Assembly: GCF_023016265.1 (NCBI RefSeq) | Contig: NZ_CP095412.1 | Span: 1,798,001-1,862,000 of the forward strand | Direction: 5' to 3' | From: Blastococcus sp. PRF04-17 | GTDB lineage: Bacteria > Actinomycetota > Actinomycetes > Mycobacteriales > Geodermatophilaceae | DNA length: 64,000 nucleotides | Part shown: in pieces, positions 38,832-46,152 of the stretch | Position numbering within the stretch: position 1 is the stretch's first letter | How the letters are laid out: the number at the start of each line of letters is the position of its first letter | Made by a program: the position numbers and the translations under genes | Notes under the pieces: model-generated | Seen by the model: only the letters and a program-made list of their open reading frames with translations | Databases searched by the model: none | What the model was told of the DNA's origin: nothing

Positions 38832-39665
38832 TCAGCTCCGGACGACGACGCGACCGCCGGCCTTCGCGCCGCGGACCAGCTGGCCGGGCGTGGCCCACAC
38901 GTCGGCCAGGGTGACGGTGCGCAGGCCGCGCTCCTCGATCAGCTCCAGCAACTCGTCGTAGACGGTGGTCACCGTCGGCTGGTTGGCGTGCCCGACGATG
39001 ATCGCCTGCGGGTGGAACCACTTCCGCGCCGCGATCATCAGCTCCTCGCCGGTGATGATCCGGGCGTCGTCGAGGGTGCCGTTCCACATCACGACCGTCG
39101 GATGGCCCAGGTCGGCGGAGATGCGGTCGATCCGCTCGTCCCGCGCACCGAAGGGCGGCCGGAAGAACGGGCTGTCGCGGACGCCGAAGGTCACCCGCAG
39201 GAAATCGCGGTTGCGGCGGATCTCCTCGGCCACCTCGGCGTCCGACAGCGTCGTGAGATCGGGGTGCGACCAGGTGTGGTTGCCCAGAGCCACCTGCCCG
39301 GAGTCGACGAGGGGCTGGAGCGCGGCCTTGTTGTCCTCCCAGGAGCGGTAGCAGCCGTTCGGGAAGAAGGTCAGCCGGATCCCGGTGTCCGCCGCCAGCT
39401 GGACGAACGAGCCGACGACCTCGGAGTCGGTGCCGTCGTCGATCGAGAGCGCGAGCGCCGTGCCGTTCCCGGGCAGGACGTCGACCACCCCCACGGGCGG
39501 CAGGACCGCGCTCGGCGCCGGAACGCGCGTGGACGTGACCGCGGCGGCCGGCGCAGGCGCCCGGCTCGGCGTCGGCCGGGTGTCCGCGAGATCGGCCGTC
39601 CCGTGCCCGACGGCGGCTCCGGCCAGGCCGGCGGCGAGGGCGAGCAGGAAGCCACGGCGGTCCAT
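38832..39665 (-). CDS. Secreted polysaccharide deacetylase (NodB domain), probable Tat substrate
   Basis: This carbohydrate esterase family 4 protein likely removes acetyl groups from peptidoglycan or another glycan outside the cell. The signal begins MDRRGFLLALAAGLAGAAVG, with a twin-Arg motif suggesting Tat export, followed by a Pro/Ala linker. The NodB motifs are ALSIDDGTD (about residue 75, metal/catalytic Asp pair), HTWSHPDL (His ligands), RPPFGARDERI and the late IIVGHANQ. IDDGTD replaces the common TFDDG. Length 277 aa. It is divergent from the subtilase gene. Confidence 0.88.
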   Translation of the reverse strand: MDRRGFLLALAAGLAGAAVGHGTADLADTRPTPSRAPAPAAAVTSTRVPAPSAVLPPVGVVDVLPGNGTALALSIDDGTDSEVVGSFVQLAADTGIRLTFFPNGCYRSWEDNKAALQPLVDSGQVALGNHTWSHPDLTTLSDAEVAEEIRRNRDFLRVTFGVRDSPFFRPPFGARDERIDRISADLGHPTVVMWNGTLDDARIITGEELMIAARKWFHPQAIIVGHANQPTVTTVYDELLELIEERGLRTVTLADVWATPGQLVRGAKAGGRVVVRS

Positions 39666-39934
39666 GGCGCGGAACGTAACGACCGCCCCACCAGCACCTT
39701 TGGACCCACGAGGCGACGCGCCGGACCCGTTCGGAGCGTGTCCGGGCAACGTCGGACAGTGATGAAGTCGATTACAGAGCGCTATATCACGGTCACAACC
39801 GTCTGTGATCGGCCCCTCACCCGGAGGAGGGGAAGTCGGTCGGGGCCATGTACTCGAACCGTCAAGCACCTGACACTGCGTACCGAACCCATTACGCACA
39901 CGGAAGTCCAACTCTCCACACGGAGGTGCACTGC

Positions 39935-41704
39935 ATGATCAGCAACCCGCGGGGCACGACCCAGGAGGCGCCGGCCTACGGCGTCACCTGGGGCGGCGTC
40001 CCCATGTTCGCGCGGCGGGCGATGACCGTCGGCGTGGCGACCCTCGTGGCCGCCGGCGTCGCCGGGCCCGCCAGCGCCGCCACCACCGCCTCGGCGGCCG
40101 AGAGCGTCTCGGTCATCGTGCGGGAGGCGGCCGGCGCCGGTGACGCGGCCGAGCACGCCGTCGCCCGCTTCGGCGGCACGGTCGGCAAGCAGCTGGAGAT
40201 CCTGGGCGGATTCACCGCCGAGGTGCCCTCCGACCGGCTCGGCGCGCTGCGCGCCGTCGCCGGCGTGGAGTCGGTGACCGAGGACGCCGGCCTGAAGCTC
40301 TCCACCACGAGCATCAAGGACTTCGCCGACCAGAACGGCTCGCTCTACACCATCGCCAACAAGGTGACCGGCGCGTCCGCGATGTGGGACGCCGGATACA
40401 CCGGCAAGGGCGTCGACGTGGCCGTCATCGACTCGGGTGTCGTCCCGGTCGAGGGGTTCAAGACGCCGGGCAAGGTCGTGTACGGCCCGGACCTCACCCT
40501 CGAGGCCGCCACCCCGGCGAGGAACCTGGACACGTACGGTCACGGCACGCACATGTCCAGCATCATCGCCGGCCGCGACTCCGCGGTGGCCGGGACCGGC
40601 AGCGGTGACGACGCGAACTTCGTCGGCATGGCGCCGGACGCCCGGATCGTCAGCATCAAGGTCGCTGACGCCAAGGGGCAGACCGACGTCTCGCAGGCCA
40701 TCGCGGCCATCGACTGGGTCGTGCAGAACCGCAACAAGAACGGCATGAACATCCGTGTTCTCAACCTGTCGTTCGGCACCGACGGTGTCCAGGACTACGT
40801 GCTCGACCCGCTCTCCTACGCGGCCGAGCAGGCCTGGCACAAGGGCATCGTCGTCGTCGTCGCGGTGGGCAACGAGGGCTTCGGCACCCAGAAGGTCAAC
40901 AACCCGGCCTACAACCCGTTCCTCATCGCCGTCGGCAGCAACAACGCCAACGGCACGGCCGACACCGCGGACGACGTCGTCTCGGCGTTCTCCAACGACG
41001 GTGACGGCACCCGCAACCCCGACCTGGTCGCCCCCGGCGAGAAGGTCCTGGGCCTGCGGAGCGGAGGGTCCTACCTGGACACCACCTACCCGGCCGCCCG
41101 CATCGGGGACCGGCTCTTCCGCGGCAGCGGCACCTCGCAGGCCGCCGCCGTCGTCTCCGGTGCCGCGGCGCTGCTGATCCAGCAGCGTCCGGACATCAAG
41201 CCCGACCAGGTGAAGGCGCTGCTCACCGGCACCGCCAACCACATCCCGGCGGCCACCGCTGCACAGCAGGGCGCCGGCCTGGTCGACCTGGTCGAGGCCA
41301 AGGATGCGCCGACCCCGGACACCGTGCAGTCGTTCAAGGTGTCCACGGGTCTGGGCTCCCTCGAGGCCGCGCGTGGTTCGGTCCACGTGTCGGTCAACGG
41401 GAAGCTCGTGAAGGGCGAGATCGACGTCCGCGGCAAGGCGATCGACGTCCGGAAGCTGGCCGAGGGCATCAAGGGCGGCCTGAACTGGAACGGCATGACG
41501 TGGTCGGGCATGACCTGGTCCGGCATGACCTGGTCCGGCATGACCTGGTCCGGCATGACCTGGTCCGGCATGACCTGGTCGGGCATGACGTGGTCCGGCA
41601 TGACCTGGTCCGGCATGACCTGGTCCGGCATGACGTGGTCGGGCATGACCTGGTCCGGCATGACGTGGTCGGGCATGACCTGGTCCGGAAACGAGTGGGC
41701 CTAG
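39935..41704 (+). CDS. Secreted S8 subtilase with inhibitor propeptide and 13 C-terminal GMTWS repeats
   Basis: This 589-aa protein is a secreted serine protease. A long N-region with a hydrophobic stretch (about 28-48) ends near GPASAA. An I9-like propeptide (about 57-118) follows. The catalytic triad is Asp166 (VIDSG), His203 (YGHGTH) and Ser401 (GSGTSQAAA), with oxyanion Asn313 (VGNEG). A linker domain (about 440-515) precedes residues 520-584, which are thirteen perfect GMTWS pentapeptides. The protein ends GNEWA. The ATG at 39935 has GGAGGT eight bases upstream. The 269-bp upstream region is AT-richer and carries TCACA-n6-TGTGA at 39793-39808, of unknown meaning. Two hairpins follow the stop. 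Confidence 0.92.
   Translation: MISNPRGTTQEAPAYGVTWGGVPMFARRAMTVGVATLVAAGVAGPASAATTASAAESVSVIVREAAGAGDAAEHAVARFGGTVGKQLEILGGFTAEVPSDRLGALRAVAGVESVTEDAGLKLSTTSIKDFADQNGSLYTIANKVTGASAMWDAGYTGKGVDVAVIDSGVVPVEGFKTPGKVVYGPDLTLEAATPARNLDTYGHGTHMSSIIAGRDSAVAGTGSGDDANFVGMAPDARIVSIKVADAKGQTDVSQAIAAIDWVVQNRNKNGMNIRVLNLSFGTDGVQDYVLDPLSYAAEQAWHKGIVVVVAVGNEGFGTQKVNNPAYNPFLIAVGSNNANGTADTADDVVSAFSNDGDGTRNPDLVAPGEKVLGLRSGGSYLDTTYPAARIGDRLFRGSGTSQAAAVVSGAAALLIQQRPDIKPDQVKALLTGTANHIPAATAAQQGAGLVDLVEAKDAPTPDTVQSFKVSTGLGSLEAARGSVHVSVNGKLVKGEIDVRGKAIDVRKLAEGIKGGLNWNGMTWSGMTWSGMTWSGMTWSGMTWSGMTWSGMTWSGMTWSGMTWSGMTWSGMTWSGMTWSGMTWSGNEWA
41492..41686 (+). repeat. Thirteen tandem 15-bp units encoding GMTWS
   Basis: The unit GGCATGACSTGGTCS is repeated 13 times without interruption or frame loss. 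Units differ only at the third bases of the Thr codon (ACC/ACG) and Ser codon (TCC/TCG). All differences are silent, so the protein repeat is perfect while the DNA has drifted. This points to selection on the peptide rather than very recent duplication alone. Confidence 0.97.
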
Positions 41705-41711
41705 TCCCCTG

Positions 41712-41757
41712 ACGGTGGCGGACGGCGGCGGTTCCCGCCGGCGCCGTCCGCCACCGT
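41712..41757. terminator. First hairpin after the subtilase gene
   Basis: ACGGTGGCGGACGGCG (41712-41727) pairs perfectly with CGCCGTCCGCCACCGT (41742-41757) around a 14-nt loop that is itself GC-rich. It starts 8 bp after the subtilase stop. No T-run follows. It is probably an intrinsic U-less terminator. Confidence 0.75.
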
Positions 41758-41773
41758 CGTCCTCTCGCAGTCC

Positions 41774-41810
41774 GGAAGGCACACGACGGTTCGCCCGTCG
41801 TGTGCCTTCC
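41774..41810. terminator. Second hairpin after the subtilase gene, TTCG-type loop
   Basis: GGAAGGCACACGACGG (41774-41789) pairs with CCGTCGTGTGCCTTCC (41795-41810), a perfect 16-bp stem with a 5-nt loop containing TTCG. With the hairpin just upstream it makes a tandem terminator, insulating the GGDEF-EAL gene from subtilase transcription. Confidence 0.8.
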
Positions 41811-41985
41811 AGGTGAGCGAGAGCCTGTGTCGTTCCGCCCGCCGTCCAGCCTCCTGGGCACTCCTCACCCCGAGGGGGGACGGCGACCCGCAGAAGTGCT
41901 GCAGAAGTCAAGAACCAGCTGGTCAGCGTCGATGAGAACCCGACAGGTCCGGGCAGCCCGCGACGAACCGAGGGAGGTGCATGGC

Positions 41986-42090
41986 ATGACCCGCGACGAT
42001 GGCGGAGCCGGGAGCAGTCACGCCCTGCAACTCCTTCCGGCGTCGACCGCAGGCATGCCGGACCTGCACGGATCGGGCCTCCCGCGATGA
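41986..42090 (+). CDS. Small ORF (34 aa) translationally coupled to the GGDEF-EAL gene
   Basis: An ATG at 41986, with AGGGAGGTG about eight bases upstream, opens a 34-codon ORF (MTRDDGGAGSSHALQLLPAS... ending GLPR). Its TGA overlaps the ATG of the GGDEF-EAL gene as ATGA. The large gene has no ribosome site of its own, since the bases before it are GGCCTCCCGCG, so this small ORF probably loads its ribosomes. The peptide itself has no recognised function. The rest of 41811-41985 shows no gene that I can support. Confidence 0.5.
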   Translation: MTRDDGGAGSSHALQLLPASTAGMPDLHGSGLPR

Positions 42091-44732
42091 CCGCGGTGGC
42101 CGACACCGGCCTCCCCGCCGGCGCACGCACGTTCCGGGTGGGTCCGGCCCAGCGGATCATGCTGCTCACGGCGACGGTGGCAGCTGCCGCGGTCGCCCTG
42201 TTCGTCCTCGTCGTCCGCCCCCTGCCCGAGGCCGCCACGGCCGTGGCCCTGCCGTGGTTCCTCTGGGCTGCCGCCTTCGCCCTCTGCGAGGCGCTGGTCG
42301 TCCACGTCCAGTGGCAGCGCGAGGCGCACAGCTTCTCCGTGGGTGACCTCGTCCTCGGCGCCGGCCTGATCCTGGCCGCGCCCCAGGACCTGGTGATCGC
42401 CCAGGTCGTCGGAGCCGGCGCCACGCTGCTGCTGCACCGGCGCCAGCGCGGCATCAAGCTCGCCTTCAACGTCGCGCTGTACGGCGTCGGTGGCAGCCTC
42501 GCCACCGGCGTCTTCGCCCTGCTCTCCGGCCCGGCCTTCGGCACCTGGGACTGGCTGGCCGCGCTCCTCGCCATCCTGGTCAGCACGGTCGTGGCCGACC
42601 TGTGCATCTTCGCCGTCATCAGCCTGTCCGAGGGGCGCCCCACCCTGGCCCCCCTGCTGGAGATGCTGGCGCTGTCGCTGCCGTTCACCCTGGGCTCGGC
42701 CGCCGTCGGCCTGGTCCTGGCCCGTTCGGCGGCCACCGACCCGGCGGCCCTGGCCCTGCTGGCGCTGCCGAGCGTGCTCATCGTCGCCGCCTACCGGGCC
42801 TACACCGGTGCCCGCGAGCAGCAGGAGAACCTGCGCCTGCTGCACGAGGTCACCTCGCTGCTGCACTCCAGCGGCGACAGCCAGGAGGCGCTCGGCGACT
42901 TCCTCCACTCGGTGCGCTCGGCCTTCCGCGCCGAACTGGCCGAACTCGTGCTGCTCGGCCCGGCCGGCCGTGACGGAGCGACCGTCAGCCGCAGCCGCGA
43001 GGGCGAGGAGGCGGTCGTCATGGCTCCGCTCGAGGACGCGCAGGACCAGCACCGGCTGCTCCGCCTGGCCAGCGCGTCGGGCACCCTCGCCACGCGGACC
43101 GGCACCGGTCGGGGCCAGCCCCTCGGCGAGTACGCGGCCGGCCGGGGCCTCAAGGACGCGATGGCCGCCGCACTGCGCACGGACGACCGCGTCCACGGGC
43201 TGCTGCTCGTGGGTGGCCGCCTCGGTGACGTCACGACCTTCAGCTCGAGCGACCTCGCGCTGCTCGACACCTTCGCCCGGCACGTGGCGACGTCCCTGGA
43301 GCGCGGTCGCCTGGAGGAGAACCTCCGCCAGGTCACCGATCTCAAGGAGCAGCTCCGGCACCAGGCCCTGCACGACCCCCTGACCGGGCTGCCGAACCGC
43401 ACCCTGTTCCTGGACCGCGTGCGGCACGCCGTCGACACCGCCGGTCGCACCCGCGTCTGGCCGGCGGTCCTGTACCTGGACCTCGACGGCTTCAAGCCGG
43501 TCAACGACACCTTCGGCCACGAGGCCGGTGACGTGCTGCTGCGCACCGTGGCCGACCGGCTGCGGGGCTGCCTGCGGCCGGCCGACACCGCCGCTCGTCT
43601 CGGCGGTGACGAGTTCGTCGTGCTGCTCAACGGGCCGATCGACCGCTTCGGCGTCGCCCGTGTCGTCGATCGCATCCGCGCCCAGCTCGACGTGCCGATC
43701 CTCCTCGGCGACGGCGTCGTCACCACGGTCGGTGCCAGCATCGGCGTCGGCATCGGTGACGCCGGCGTCCCCGATGCCGACACCCTCGTCCGGCACGCGG
43801 ACATCGCGATGTACGCCGCCAAGCGCTCGCTCGGCCAGGACTTCCTGATCTACGAGCCGGGCCTGGGCACCACGACCTCCTCCAACCGCAAGGACTCCGC
43901 CGCCGAGCTCGCCGCCGCCATCGAGAACGGTGAGCTCCGGACGGTCTACCAGCCGCTGATCGACATGCGGACCGGCCGGCCGATCGGCGCCGAGGCGCTG
44001 GTCCGCTGGCAGCACCCCACGGAGGGGATGCGGTCGCCGGACCAGTTCATCAGCCTGGCCGAAGAGAGCGGCCTGATCACGCAGATCGGCGAGCTCGTGC
44101 TGGGCGACGCCTGCCACCAGGCGGCGCGGTGGGTGGAGGCCTCGCCCGACCAGGAGGACCTCCTGGTGACGGTGAACCTCTCCGCCCGCCAGGTGGGTGA
44201 CGAGCAGATCGTCGAGCAGGTGCGCGACGCGCTGGCCCAGTCCGGCCTGGAGCCCCGCCGGCTGGTCCTGGAGATCACCGAGACGGTCCTCATGCACGAC
44301 CGCGACGCGGCGGCGGCGACCCTGTGGCTGCTCAAGGGCCTGGGCGTGCGCATCGCGATCGACGACTTCGGCACCGGTTACTCGTCGCTGGCCTACCTGC
44401 GCCGCTTCCCCATCGACATGCTCAAGGTGGCCCGCGAGTTCGTCGACGGCCTCGGCCGGGACGCCCACGACGACGTCATCACCCGCGCGATCGTGGAGCT
44501 GGCCGGCACCCTCGGCCTGCTCACCGTGGCCGAGGGCATCGAGACCACGCAGCAGTCCGAGACCGTCGCCGCCCTCGGCTGCGACATCGCGCAGGGCTAC
44601 CTGTTCTCGCGGCCGATCGAGGCCGATGCCGCCAGCGAGGTCATGTCGGCGTCCGTCGTCTCCCCGATCATCCGGCCGCGCCCCCAGCTGCGGTCCGACC
44701 AGGACGGCACGCCGGAGCTGGCCTCGGCCTAG
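42087..44732 (+). CDS. Membrane GAF-GGDEF-EAL protein (c-di-GMP synthesis and breakdown)
   Basis: This 881-aa protein probably both makes and degrades cyclic di-GMP. The N-terminal part (about residues 20-235) has six to seven membrane helices of unknown sensor type. A GAF-like region follows (about 250-425). The GGDEF domain (about 430-600) keeps RLGGDEFVVLL near residue 505, so cyclase activity is plausible. The EAL domain (about 615-865) has GAEALVRW, VNLSARQ, EITETVL, DDFGTGYSSLAYL and VAEGIET, all expected for an active phosphodiesterase. The gene follows the subtilase after two terminators and a coupled small ORF. An IS element sits 13 bp after its stop. Confidence 0.93.
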   Translation: MTAVADTGLPAGARTFRVGPAQRIMLLTATVAAAAVALFVLVVRPLPEAATAVALPWFLWAAAFALCEALVVHVQWQREAHSFSVGDLVLGAGLILAAPQDLVIAQVVGAGATLLLHRRQRGIKLAFNVALYGVGGSLATGVFALLSGPAFGTWDWLAALLAILVSTVVADLCIFAVISLSEGRPTLAPLLEMLALSLPFTLGSAAVGLVLARSAATDPAALALLALPSVLIVAAYRAYTGAREQQENLRLLHEVTSLLHSSGDSQEALGDFLHSVRSAFRAELAELVLLGPAGRDGATVSRSREGEEAVVMAPLEDAQDQHRLLRLASASGTLATRTGTGRGQPLGEYAAGRGLKDAMAAALRTDDRVHGLLLVGGRLGDVTTFSSSDLALLDTFARHVATSLERGRLEENLRQVTDLKEQLRHQALHDPLTGLPNRTLFLDRVRHAVDTAGRTRVWPAVLYLDLDGFKPVNDTFGHEAGDVLLRTVADRLRGCLRPADTAARLGGDEFVVLLNGPIDRFGVARVVDRIRAQLDVPILLGDGVVTTVGASIGVGIGDAGVPDADTLVRHADIAMYAAKRSLGQDFLIYEPGLGTTTSSNRKDSAAELAAAIENGELRTVYQPLIDMRTGRPIGAEALVRWQHPTEGMRSPDQFISLAEESGLITQIGELVLGDACHQAARWVEASPDQEDLLVTVNLSARQVGDEQIVEQVRDALAQSGLEPRRLVLEITETVLMHDRDAAAATLWLLKGLGVRIAIDDFGTGYSSLAYLRRFPIDMLKVAREFVDGLGRDAHDDVITRAIVELAGTLGLLTVAEGIETTQQSETVAALGCDIAQGYLFSRPIEADAASEVMSASVVSPIIRPRPQLRSDQDGTPELASA

Positions 44733-44778: not shown

Positions 44779-46152
44779 TCAAGGGTCGGGGTCGGCGAGG
44801 ACGTCGATGCTGATGGTGATCCGGTGGCTGGGTCCGCGGAGTCGCCCGCTGGCGGTGTGCGGGGCGTAGGTGGAGATGGCTCGCTTGACCACCCGAGGGG
44901 TGTTTCGGCGGCGTCGGGCGGGCAGGAGGCTGGCCAGGACCTGGTCGCCGATGACGCCGACGAGGTCGACGCTGGTGTCGGCGATGACTCCGGCGGCCTT
45001 GACCAGCTGGTCGCGGGCGGCGCGGAGGGCGACGGTGAAACTGGCCCGGTCGGGATCGATGTCGCCGGCGGTGAGCGTTGCGTCGGTGATCGCGATCCGG
45101 AGTGCCTGGTAGGCGATCAGCCGTGCGTAGATTTCCTGCTCGAGACCGGCCGGGGTCCGCGCGCGCAGCACCCGCCCGCCGCCGATGCTCTGCTTGAGCT
45201 CGCAGTACGCGGTCTCGATCTCCCACCGCTGGTGATAGAGGCCGACGATCTCGACGGCCGGGCAGTCGGCGTCGGTCACCGTGGTGACCAGTTGGTAGGC
45301 CTCGCTGCGCCGCCGCTGGCCGGTGTCGATAGTGATCTGGGCCCGGATGACCCGAACCTCGACCTGTCCGATCCGCGATAGCCACGAGCCATCGGCGCAG
45401 CGGCGGCAGACCGGCAGCCGGCGTCCACTTTTGACCCTGATCAGCAGGTCCGCGCCGCGGTCGGCGATCTTGTCGATCAGATCCGCGGCGGCGAAGTTGC
45501 GGTCGGCCAGCACGATCATCGGCGCGCGCATGGCCGGCACCAGGTCGGCGGCGTAGCCGGTCTCCCCGCGGCCGATCGACCCGAAGACCGCGTCGATGAT
45601 CGTCCGGGTGCCGCAGGCGACCAGCGCCAGCAGCCGGACCATCGGATAGCCGGTGCCGCCGTGATGGCTGCCGCCCTTGCGGTGGACGGTCAGGTTGGCC
45701 GGGGTGTCCGGGCAGCACATCGTGGTGCCGTCGATCGCGGTGACCAGCCGGCCGCGCCACCACACGCCCTTGGTGGCCGGGCCGGCGGCCGGCCCGCGGA
45801 GCAGCTCGAACAGCTTGCCCAGCGGCGCCGGCCCGATCCGGCGCCGGGCGGCGGCCAGGCCCGCCGCACTCGGCTCGGCGACCGGCAGTCCGTCCAGCCC
45901 GGCCACCAGCCGCGCCCACACCTGCCGGTAGCCGCACTCGACGAACAGCGCTCCGGCCAGCAGCAGGTACACCACAACCCGGGAGGGCAGATCGCGCACC
46001 CGCTGCTGCACGGTGTCGGTCTCGTCCAGGGCGGCGTCGACCATCTCGAACGGCACGATTTGGGTCAGCTCACCCAGATGACCCGGCGCGAACCGGTCCT
46101 CGGCGACGGTGACCTCACGAACGACCCGACTGGTGCCAGACTGAACAGGCAA
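44779..46152 (-). CDS. IS4-family transposase
   Basis: This 457-aa DDE transposase has the IS4 signature Y-(2)-R-(3)-E-(6)-K in YHQRWEIETAYCELK (about residue 320). The first Asp is in TAIDGTTMCCPD (about 122) and the second in VLADRNFAAADLI (about 215). The N-terminal region resembles the IS4 transposase N domain (VYLLLAGALFVECGYRQVW). It reads from TTG at 46152, with GGGAG five bases upstream; the next in-frame start would cut into conserved sequence. The frame is intact, so it may still be active. A 15-bp inverted repeat surrounds the start region. Confidence 0.92.
   Translation of the reverse strand: MPVQSGTSRVVREVTVAEDRFAPGHLGELTQIVPFEMVDAALDETDTVQQRVRDLPSRVVVYLLLAGALFVECGYRQVWARLVAGLDGLPVAEPSAAGLAAARRRIGPAPLGKLFELLRGPAAGPATKGVWWRGRLVTAIDGTTMCCPDTPANLTVHRKGGSHHGGTGYPMVRLLALVACGTRTIIDAVFGSIGRGETGYAADLVPAMRAPMIVLADRNFAAADLIDKIADRGADLLIRVKSGRRLPVCRRCADGSWLSRIGQVEVRVIRAQITIDTGQRRRSEAYQLVTTVTDADCPAVEIVGLYHQRWEIETAYCELKQSIGGGRVLRARTPAGLEQEIYARLIAYQALRIAITDATLTAGDIDPDRASFTVALRAARDQLVKAAGVIADTSVDLVGVIGDQVLASLLPARRRRNTPRVVKRAISTYAPHTASGRLRGPSHRITISIDVLADPDP

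Follow-up and report, generated by a model that had tools for sequence, protein, structure and literature searches.

Background

In the LapD/LapG system, a membrane protein with GGDEF and EAL domains is linked to an exported protease. A period of five residues is known from the pentapeptide repeat proteins, whose units follow the pattern A(D/N)LXX, and tryptophan often takes part in the binding of glycans. A spacing of one tryptophan per five residues has been described in the tryptophan repeat of Nanog, which, in the available part of the source, lies within the dimerisation domain (PMC5446312). In Caulobacter, HmrC appears, in the available part of its report, as an S-component-like membrane protein standing atop a pathway that changes c-di-GMP (PMC11481889). 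Among S8 subtilisins, none with a tail of Trp pentads or a linked sensor was found in the open literature, and no description of the Trp tail, the protease-sensor pair or the sensor domain considered here was found in open-access publications.

The current work concerns a subtilase gene and its neighbour in a stretch of Blastococcus sp. PRF04-17 DNA of 64,000 nucleotides, referred to below in its entirety as the window. An original prediction, made from the sequence of the window, had drawn attention to a tryptophan-rich repeat at the end of the subtilase.

Architecture of the subtilase and its Trp tail

The protease gene (39935..41704, + strand) encodes an S8 subtilase of 589 amino acids, in which an apparent signal peptide, a propeptide, a catalytic domain, a linker and a Trp tail follow each other. 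The signal peptide was recognized by eye as a hydrophobic stretch ending in PASA at residues 45-48. The Peptidase_S8 catalytic domain (PF00082, 6.1e-41) occupies residues 157-448 (40403..41278, +) and scores 141 bits over profile positions 1-288 against a cut-off of 21.8; with Asp166, His203, Ser401 and the oxyanion Asn in a full-length domain, the protein belongs to peptidase family S8. D166, H203, N313 and S401 (D110, H147, N257 and S345 in alignment A4) are invariant in 54 of 54 aligned members. Alignment A4 contained the window and 53 of 67 references, all 67 picked for having W-x4-W, after removal of overlong linkers, truncations and frame breaks. Both Pfam and structure describe the window enzyme as a normal and complete subtilase, as had been predicted. 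Two other alignments, A2 and A5, held 12 of 13 references (L006 was left out, and L002 was added by hand and later removed) and the window with 51 of 52 references, respectively.

A linker with the signature TGxGSLExARGS...GExDxxG (41345..41434, +) precedes the Trp arrays in the relatives. It was read from the invariant columns of alignment A1, which included 15 of 18 linker-tail sequences; the Blastococcus relatives L008, L009 and L013 were dropped for their long linkers, and in these three, linker and Trp array are separated by a long insert with a high content of Glu, Ala and Gln. Beyond the linker, the tail NWN-(GMTWS)13-GNEWA (41483..41701, +) contains 15 Trp residues at a strict spacing of five. 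The 13 identical GMTWS units correspond to residues 520-584 and lie at 41492..41686 (+), exactly where the original prediction had placed them, and the translation ends GLNWN-(GMTWS)x13-GNEWA. Tandem Repeats Finder (TRF) reports the array as a 15-bp repeat with a score of 342, the runner-up among the seven rows for the window scoring 84. A plain search for the spacing of TGG was unspecific in this G+C-rich genome, giving 25 and 16 matches versus 24 and 17 in the reversed control.

Four distinct DNA units were found among the 13, and they differ only at the third position of the codons for Thr and Ser, so the differences are silent, as had been stated. From this silence, purifying selection on the peptide had been concluded. 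Codon mixing in the window array, however, is 0.31, against 0.51 expected at random and a 2.5% limit of 0.35, implying that the array has been partly homogenized at the DNA level. Its silent differences are thus weak evidence of selection, and the evidence must come from relatives; comparison among genes and species, given below, upholds the selection for the spacing of the Trp residues.

Nearly all of the window Trp tail has a pLDDT below 50 in the AlphaFold model, a result that is not decisive for a low-complexity repeat. A beta-solenoid, one of the structures originally proposed, or a pentapeptide-repeat fold finds no support in this low pLDDT or in the few weak matches to PF00805: the window protein had no match at 0.01, and 3 of 54 members matched weakly, with 0.0013 as the best value.

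Upstream of the protease gene, the divergent neighbour (38832-39911, -) is a polysaccharide deacetylase. Downstream, 382 bp separate the protease from the next gene, and two back-to-back, near-perfect strong hairpins without a T run are located in this gap (41710..41823, +; -97.8 kcal/mol, z -10.86 for 41700-41830). No terminator-like site was detected in 39700-42150, and only one partial match to the hairpin pair, 46 bp at 83%, was found elsewhere in the same genome.

Conservation of the tail in related proteases

Related proteases were sought in named genomes with catalytic-domain patterns. At least 489 relatives were found and the best 80 were kept. All of these 80 carry a W-x4-W array: 77 were detected by a script as runs of at least six and one (L137) by eye, while in L150 and L157, counted here as well, the array runs to the contig end after 3-4 Trp. 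The 80 relatives are labelled as Geodermatophilaceae, Actinoplanes with its relatives, Frankiales and Acidimicrobiia, and also as Gaiella-type, Euzebya/Egibacter-type, Chloroflexi and Dormibacterota genomes. In two of the 80, L124 and L127, inspection by eye suggested that the reading frame is probably broken close to the array end or at it. In L124, tail and sensor share one open frame, which could be taken for a gene fusion; the post-tail sequence looks frame-shifted, and this candidate was rejected.

Usable tails delimited by the linker numbered 81, with none from L087, L094, L108, L124 or L157. Among their 1280 steps from one Trp to the next, 1168 are exactly 5 residues long, 68 are 10 and 44 have other lengths. 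A separate count of 1232 W, 8 F and 6 Y was taken from runs that were themselves delimited by one of these three residues at five-residue intervals, and by itself is no measure of Trp retention. Over 83 arrays, namely the 81 in the loci of relatives and two of the own genome, the consensus unit is G-x-[ST]-W-[ST], with x as the freest position (3.52 bits). Of the 83 arrays, 34 have a negative net charge, 20 have none and 29 have a positive one; this lack of conservation led us to reject charge-driven membrane binding.

Within the genus, the units change with species: GMSWS, GVTWS, GVSWS, GLSWS, GLSWN, GLTWN, SAKTW and GRTWS were all observed with a constant Trp, and GIRWS shows Tyr or Phe at some of the Trp places. 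One unit makes up at least 80% of the array in 21 of 81 tails, and in 24 of 81 no unit reaches half. Codon mixing was evaluated in the 60 arrays with at least 7 copies of one unit. In 28 of them (e.g. L120, L123, L126 and L135), mixing is not below random and the peptide unit is constant; in the other 32, including that of the window, it is below random, and L095 shows none at all. The maintenance of steps of five while the units change, together with the 28 unhomogenized arrays, indicates, on the comparison of sequences, that the Trp spacing is under selection, with homogenization by duplication on top of it in about half of the arrays.

Repeats of this kind may also occur apart from a protease. 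Two possible W-repeat proteins without a protease domain, at L238 3-335 (-) and L233 2805-3134 (+), are both cut by contig ends; the former begins with a signal-like sequence, and the latter is divergent from a sensor gene. Five other candidates (L031, L032, L235, L236 and L237) were weak and rejected, as they look like G+C-rich repeat frames or unrelated proteins.

The partner gene and its membrane domain

The conserved neighbour of the protease gene (42087..44732, +) encodes a protein of 881 amino acids composed of a membrane sensor domain, GAF, GGDEF and EAL. The motif GGDEF is intact at residue 506 of the GGDEF domain (43365..43829, +), and the EAL domain (43905..44615, +) has the motifs EALVR and DDFGTGYSSL. 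The first ~245 residues have no Pfam match. They include an undescribed multi-helix membrane domain of ~225 amino acids (42147..42821, +), which was modelled by AF2 with a pLDDT of 93.4, and a fold search with this model places it in the S-component fold of ECF transporters. No S-component family was matched in Pfam by the window protein or by the 52 sensors scanned, and none in the PDB by sequence.

The outputs of these 52 sensors (window + 51, a few of them cut by contig ends) are GGDEF in 46, EAL in 42 and HisKA with HATPase in 5. Such exchange of outputs implies that the membrane domain, rather than any one output, is the conserved part. Alignment A3 was made from 39 of the 54 adjacent sensors plus the window. 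According to the count of charges, the outer loops are only short and a conserved hairpin would be on the cytoplasmic side; in that orientation, no conserved pocket for binding is apparent on the outside. The sensor gene is immediately followed by an ORF (44779-46152, -) that is presumably transposase-like.

Linkage of the Trp-tailed protease and the sensor

In the loci of the best 80 relatives, tblastn and profile searches found the sensor in 54, directly downstream on the same strand in 53 and upstream on the opposite strand in one. When only the 72 informative loci are counted, which either show a sensor or extend for no less than 900 bp beyond the protease, 18 are without this neighbour. 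A third conserved neighbour was not detected among the commonest unlabelled neighbour families, which consisted of additional sensors and of protease frames read in antisense. No common neighbour was evident in the 17 examined of the 18 sensor-less loci.

At the level of the phylum, 396 genomes were sampled. The linker-tail profile matched 33 and the sensor profile 75, and 33 of the 33 genomes with a Trp-tailed protease also encode the sensor (Fisher 1.3e-27); this sensor profile derives from sensors adjacent to such protease genes, and the samples of this section partly overlap the profile genomes (e.g. L287/L121) and so are not fully independent. The remaining 42 of the 75 sensor genomes have the sensor alone, without a tail match at the cut-off. 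By gene, 39 of 46 tailed proteases are located within 4 kb of a sensor domain; the sensor is downstream on the same strand in 37 of these, in 35 at a distance of at most 449 bp. Of the 7 unlinked genes, 3 adjoin a weak sensor match (L244, L247 and L246, the last being the weakest). From the 86 sensor loci not adjacent to a tail match, 40 were fetched: 32 have no Trp-tailed gene nearby, and 8 hold one that the profile had missed, with the sensor first in L204 and L206. Seven of these 8 genes were checked by Pfam and all are S8; the eighth (L223) has a masked stretch. No tail-less subtilase was seen by a motif script beside 60 further sensor loci.

In the genus, the Trp-tailed protease is matched in 13 of 16 genomes. 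A sensor is near 19 of 20 Trp-tailed S8 matches and near 0 of 69 other S8 matches (1.8e-18), the latter being defined as S8 without a match to the window protein, with tails not individually read. The single exception runs into a contig end; a second contig of the same draft genome begins with a tail-like match and a sensor side by side, so that this gene may be split. The 3 genomes without the protease lack a close sensor, and each has one distant copy (E 5.6e-13 to 2.6e-16). The own genome encodes a second Trp-tailed subtilase with a degenerate tail (1589823-1592209, -, on contig C1), and a sensor is located just downstream. Tandem pairs of such subtilases were observed in L112, L118, L137, L153 and L158, followed by a sensor gene in L112, L118 and L137.

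Among 96 genomes of the family, 34 have both genes, 3 the tail only, 7 a close sensor only and 52 neither, at cut-offs of about E 1e-10 for the tail and 1e-30 for the sensor. Two of the tail-only genomes, G023 and G043, have a sensor under the cut-off directly beside the tail. Sensor copies of some kind, mostly distant, are present in 94 of the 96. The genomes of unlinked tail genes were searched for 15 of the 18 sensor-less loci, representing 14 genomes, with three controls; 13 of 14 encode a close sensor somewhere (E <= 2.3e-46), and one has only a distant copy.

On the Chloroflexi side, 15 of 201 genomes matched. In 12 of these 15 genomes, 14 loci with a Trp-tailed gene were fetched, and 10 of them adjoin a sensor; three of the sensor matches (L294, L295 and L297) are weak, 3e-7 to 8e-6. 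The units in these three loci are very different, e.g. NITWD and AVSWD. Distances between proteases and between sensors are correlated (Mantel r 0.71, n=30, 0 of 2000 permutations), which shared ancestry alone can yield. By position and by co-occurrence in genomes, the clade of Trp-tailed subtilases is strongly and tightly tied to one membrane domain.

A putative two-gene signalling module

The linkage suggests that the Trp-tailed protease and the membrane sensor form a new kind of cell-surface signalling pair. Our main reading, to which we give a probability of about one half, is that the protease and the next gene constitute a two-gene signalling module in which the Trp tail serves as the coupling between a secreted subtilase and the sensor. 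The tail is taken as the coupling element because it separates the sensor-linked subtilases from other S8 proteases in the genus. We infer export, membrane contact, direct binding of tail and sensor, and the direction of the signal. The subtilase would be exported, and its flexible tail would retain it on the external side of the cytoplasmic membrane, in contact with the S-component-like sensor. The state of the protease, whether present, displaced or self-cleaved, may then pass via the sensor to a c-di-GMP or phosphorylation output. The many equivalent Trp units would provide avidity and could gather several sensors, an arrangement suited to outputs that work as dimers.

A more specific proposal, which we offer only tentatively, is that the multivalent Trp ladder of the secreted subtilase may be the ligand of a receptor with the S-component fold and may set its c-di-GMP or kinase output, making this a new bacterial signalling system, found in the phylum of the window and on the Chloroflexi side. 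If true, a fold of vitamin uptake has taken on the role of receptor for another protein, and many soil bacteria would have their c-di-GMP enzymes and histidine kinases controlled by a tryptophan ladder borne on a protein. A repeat and a membrane sensor domain, both without a name, are joined here with a clade of proteases in one testable module across several bacterial lineages, and an explanation is offered for a repeat that, seen in one genome only, could pass for junk.

Alternative explanations

The tail may be a mere anchor to membrane or wall, with the protease cutting surface proteins, be it the sensor or others, and the cut being read by the sensor; the pair would then be enzyme and substrate, not tail and receptor. 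We hold this to be unlikely, if well worth keeping in view: the linkage is with the whole protease, the catalytic residues do not vary among the 54 aligned members and the tail is flexible in the AlphaFold model, but the 0 of 69 other S8 matches near a sensor in the genus and the lack of tail-less subtilases beside the 60 sensor loci covered by the motif script point to the tail, and outer loops as short as the charge count suggests would offer few cleavage sites. A role for proteolysis is also part of the rather doubtful idea that the tail is a multi-copy peptide precursor, from which self-cut repeats release short Trp peptides to the sensor in the manner of a pheromone. The receptor-like gene next door and the near-perfect, species-specific arrays (one unit at 80% or more in 21 of 81) would agree with it. 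A fixed peptide ligand, however, would need more to be kept than Trp and its small neighbours, and the heterogeneity of units, with none reaching half in 24 of 81 arrays, disfavours such a product. The signal could also run from the inside out, as in LapD/LapG, so that c-di-GMP in the cytoplasm is sensed by the GGDEF-EAL protein, which in turn acts on the secreted protease by way of the tail. That a protease and a GGDEF-EAL membrane protein share one locus speaks for this scheme, which we nevertheless consider improbable in view of the intact GGDEF and EAL motifs of the window protein, the kinase in place of GGDEF-EAL in 5 of 52 sensors and the score of 110.8 bits with the LapD model against a cut-off of 1020.

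The remaining explanations separate the tail from the sensor altogether. Binding of wall glycan or self-association through Trp, with the two genes merely in a stable neighbourhood, would account for the 18 of 72 loci without a sensor neighbour and has parallels in the frequent use of Trp in glycan binding and in the dimerisation domain of Nanog, as far as the available part of that source goes. Its probability is small, as a close sensor is encoded in 13 of 14 genomes with an unlinked tail locus and the pairing spans both the phylum of the window and the Chloroflexi side. Neutral repeat slippage is very improbable. The 32 homogenized arrays of 60, with L095 lacking any mixing, do imply that arrays are often re-made by duplication, but slippage as the whole story was rejected: 1168 of 1280 steps are exactly five while the neighbours of Trp change between species, 28 of 60 arrays mix codons no less than at random yet keep their peptide unit, and the tail is present in 80 of the best 80 relatives. 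As signs of slippage, the original prediction had named free variation of repeat number and sequence between close strains with frameshifts, or tail loss in most orthologues; none of the best 80 relatives has lost the tail, and two show likely frame breaks.

Comparison with known systems

Secreted S8 subtilisins of the propeptide type (e.g. Tk-SP, 3afg) share the fold and the catalytic residues with the window protease. The mycosin of type VII secretion (TIGR03921) is the best-scoring named subfamily at 154.3 bits, yet this is far under its cut-off of 278.75, and the protease does not belong to it. The Trp tail has the five-residue period and similar small neighbours in common with the pentapeptide repeat proteins of PF00805, but W replaces L or F, position -2 is often a large or charged residue (R, M, N, K or H), and there is no confident fold. 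Nanog is an animal transcription factor, and, from the available part of its description, the likeness of its repeat to the Trp tail is an analogy only.

The sensor domain shares its fold, without a sequence match, with the S-components of ECF transporters (RibU, ThiT, BioY and others; the entry 4m58 is presumably NikM). It differs from them in the extra helices at both ends and the fused signalling output, and also in its orientation, which the charge count suggests to be inverted. HmrC, in comparison, is a separate protein with five predicted helices, and no protease partner is mentioned in the available part of its report (PMC11481889). In pairing a membrane protein of c-di-GMP signalling with a protease, the locus resembles LapD/LapG. 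The window protein nevertheless falls outside the LapD family of NCBIfam, its GGDEF and EAL motifs being intact and not degenerate. Thus, the present pair is distinguished from LapD/LapG by a different protease family, by intact enzyme motifs and by variants in which a kinase forms the output.
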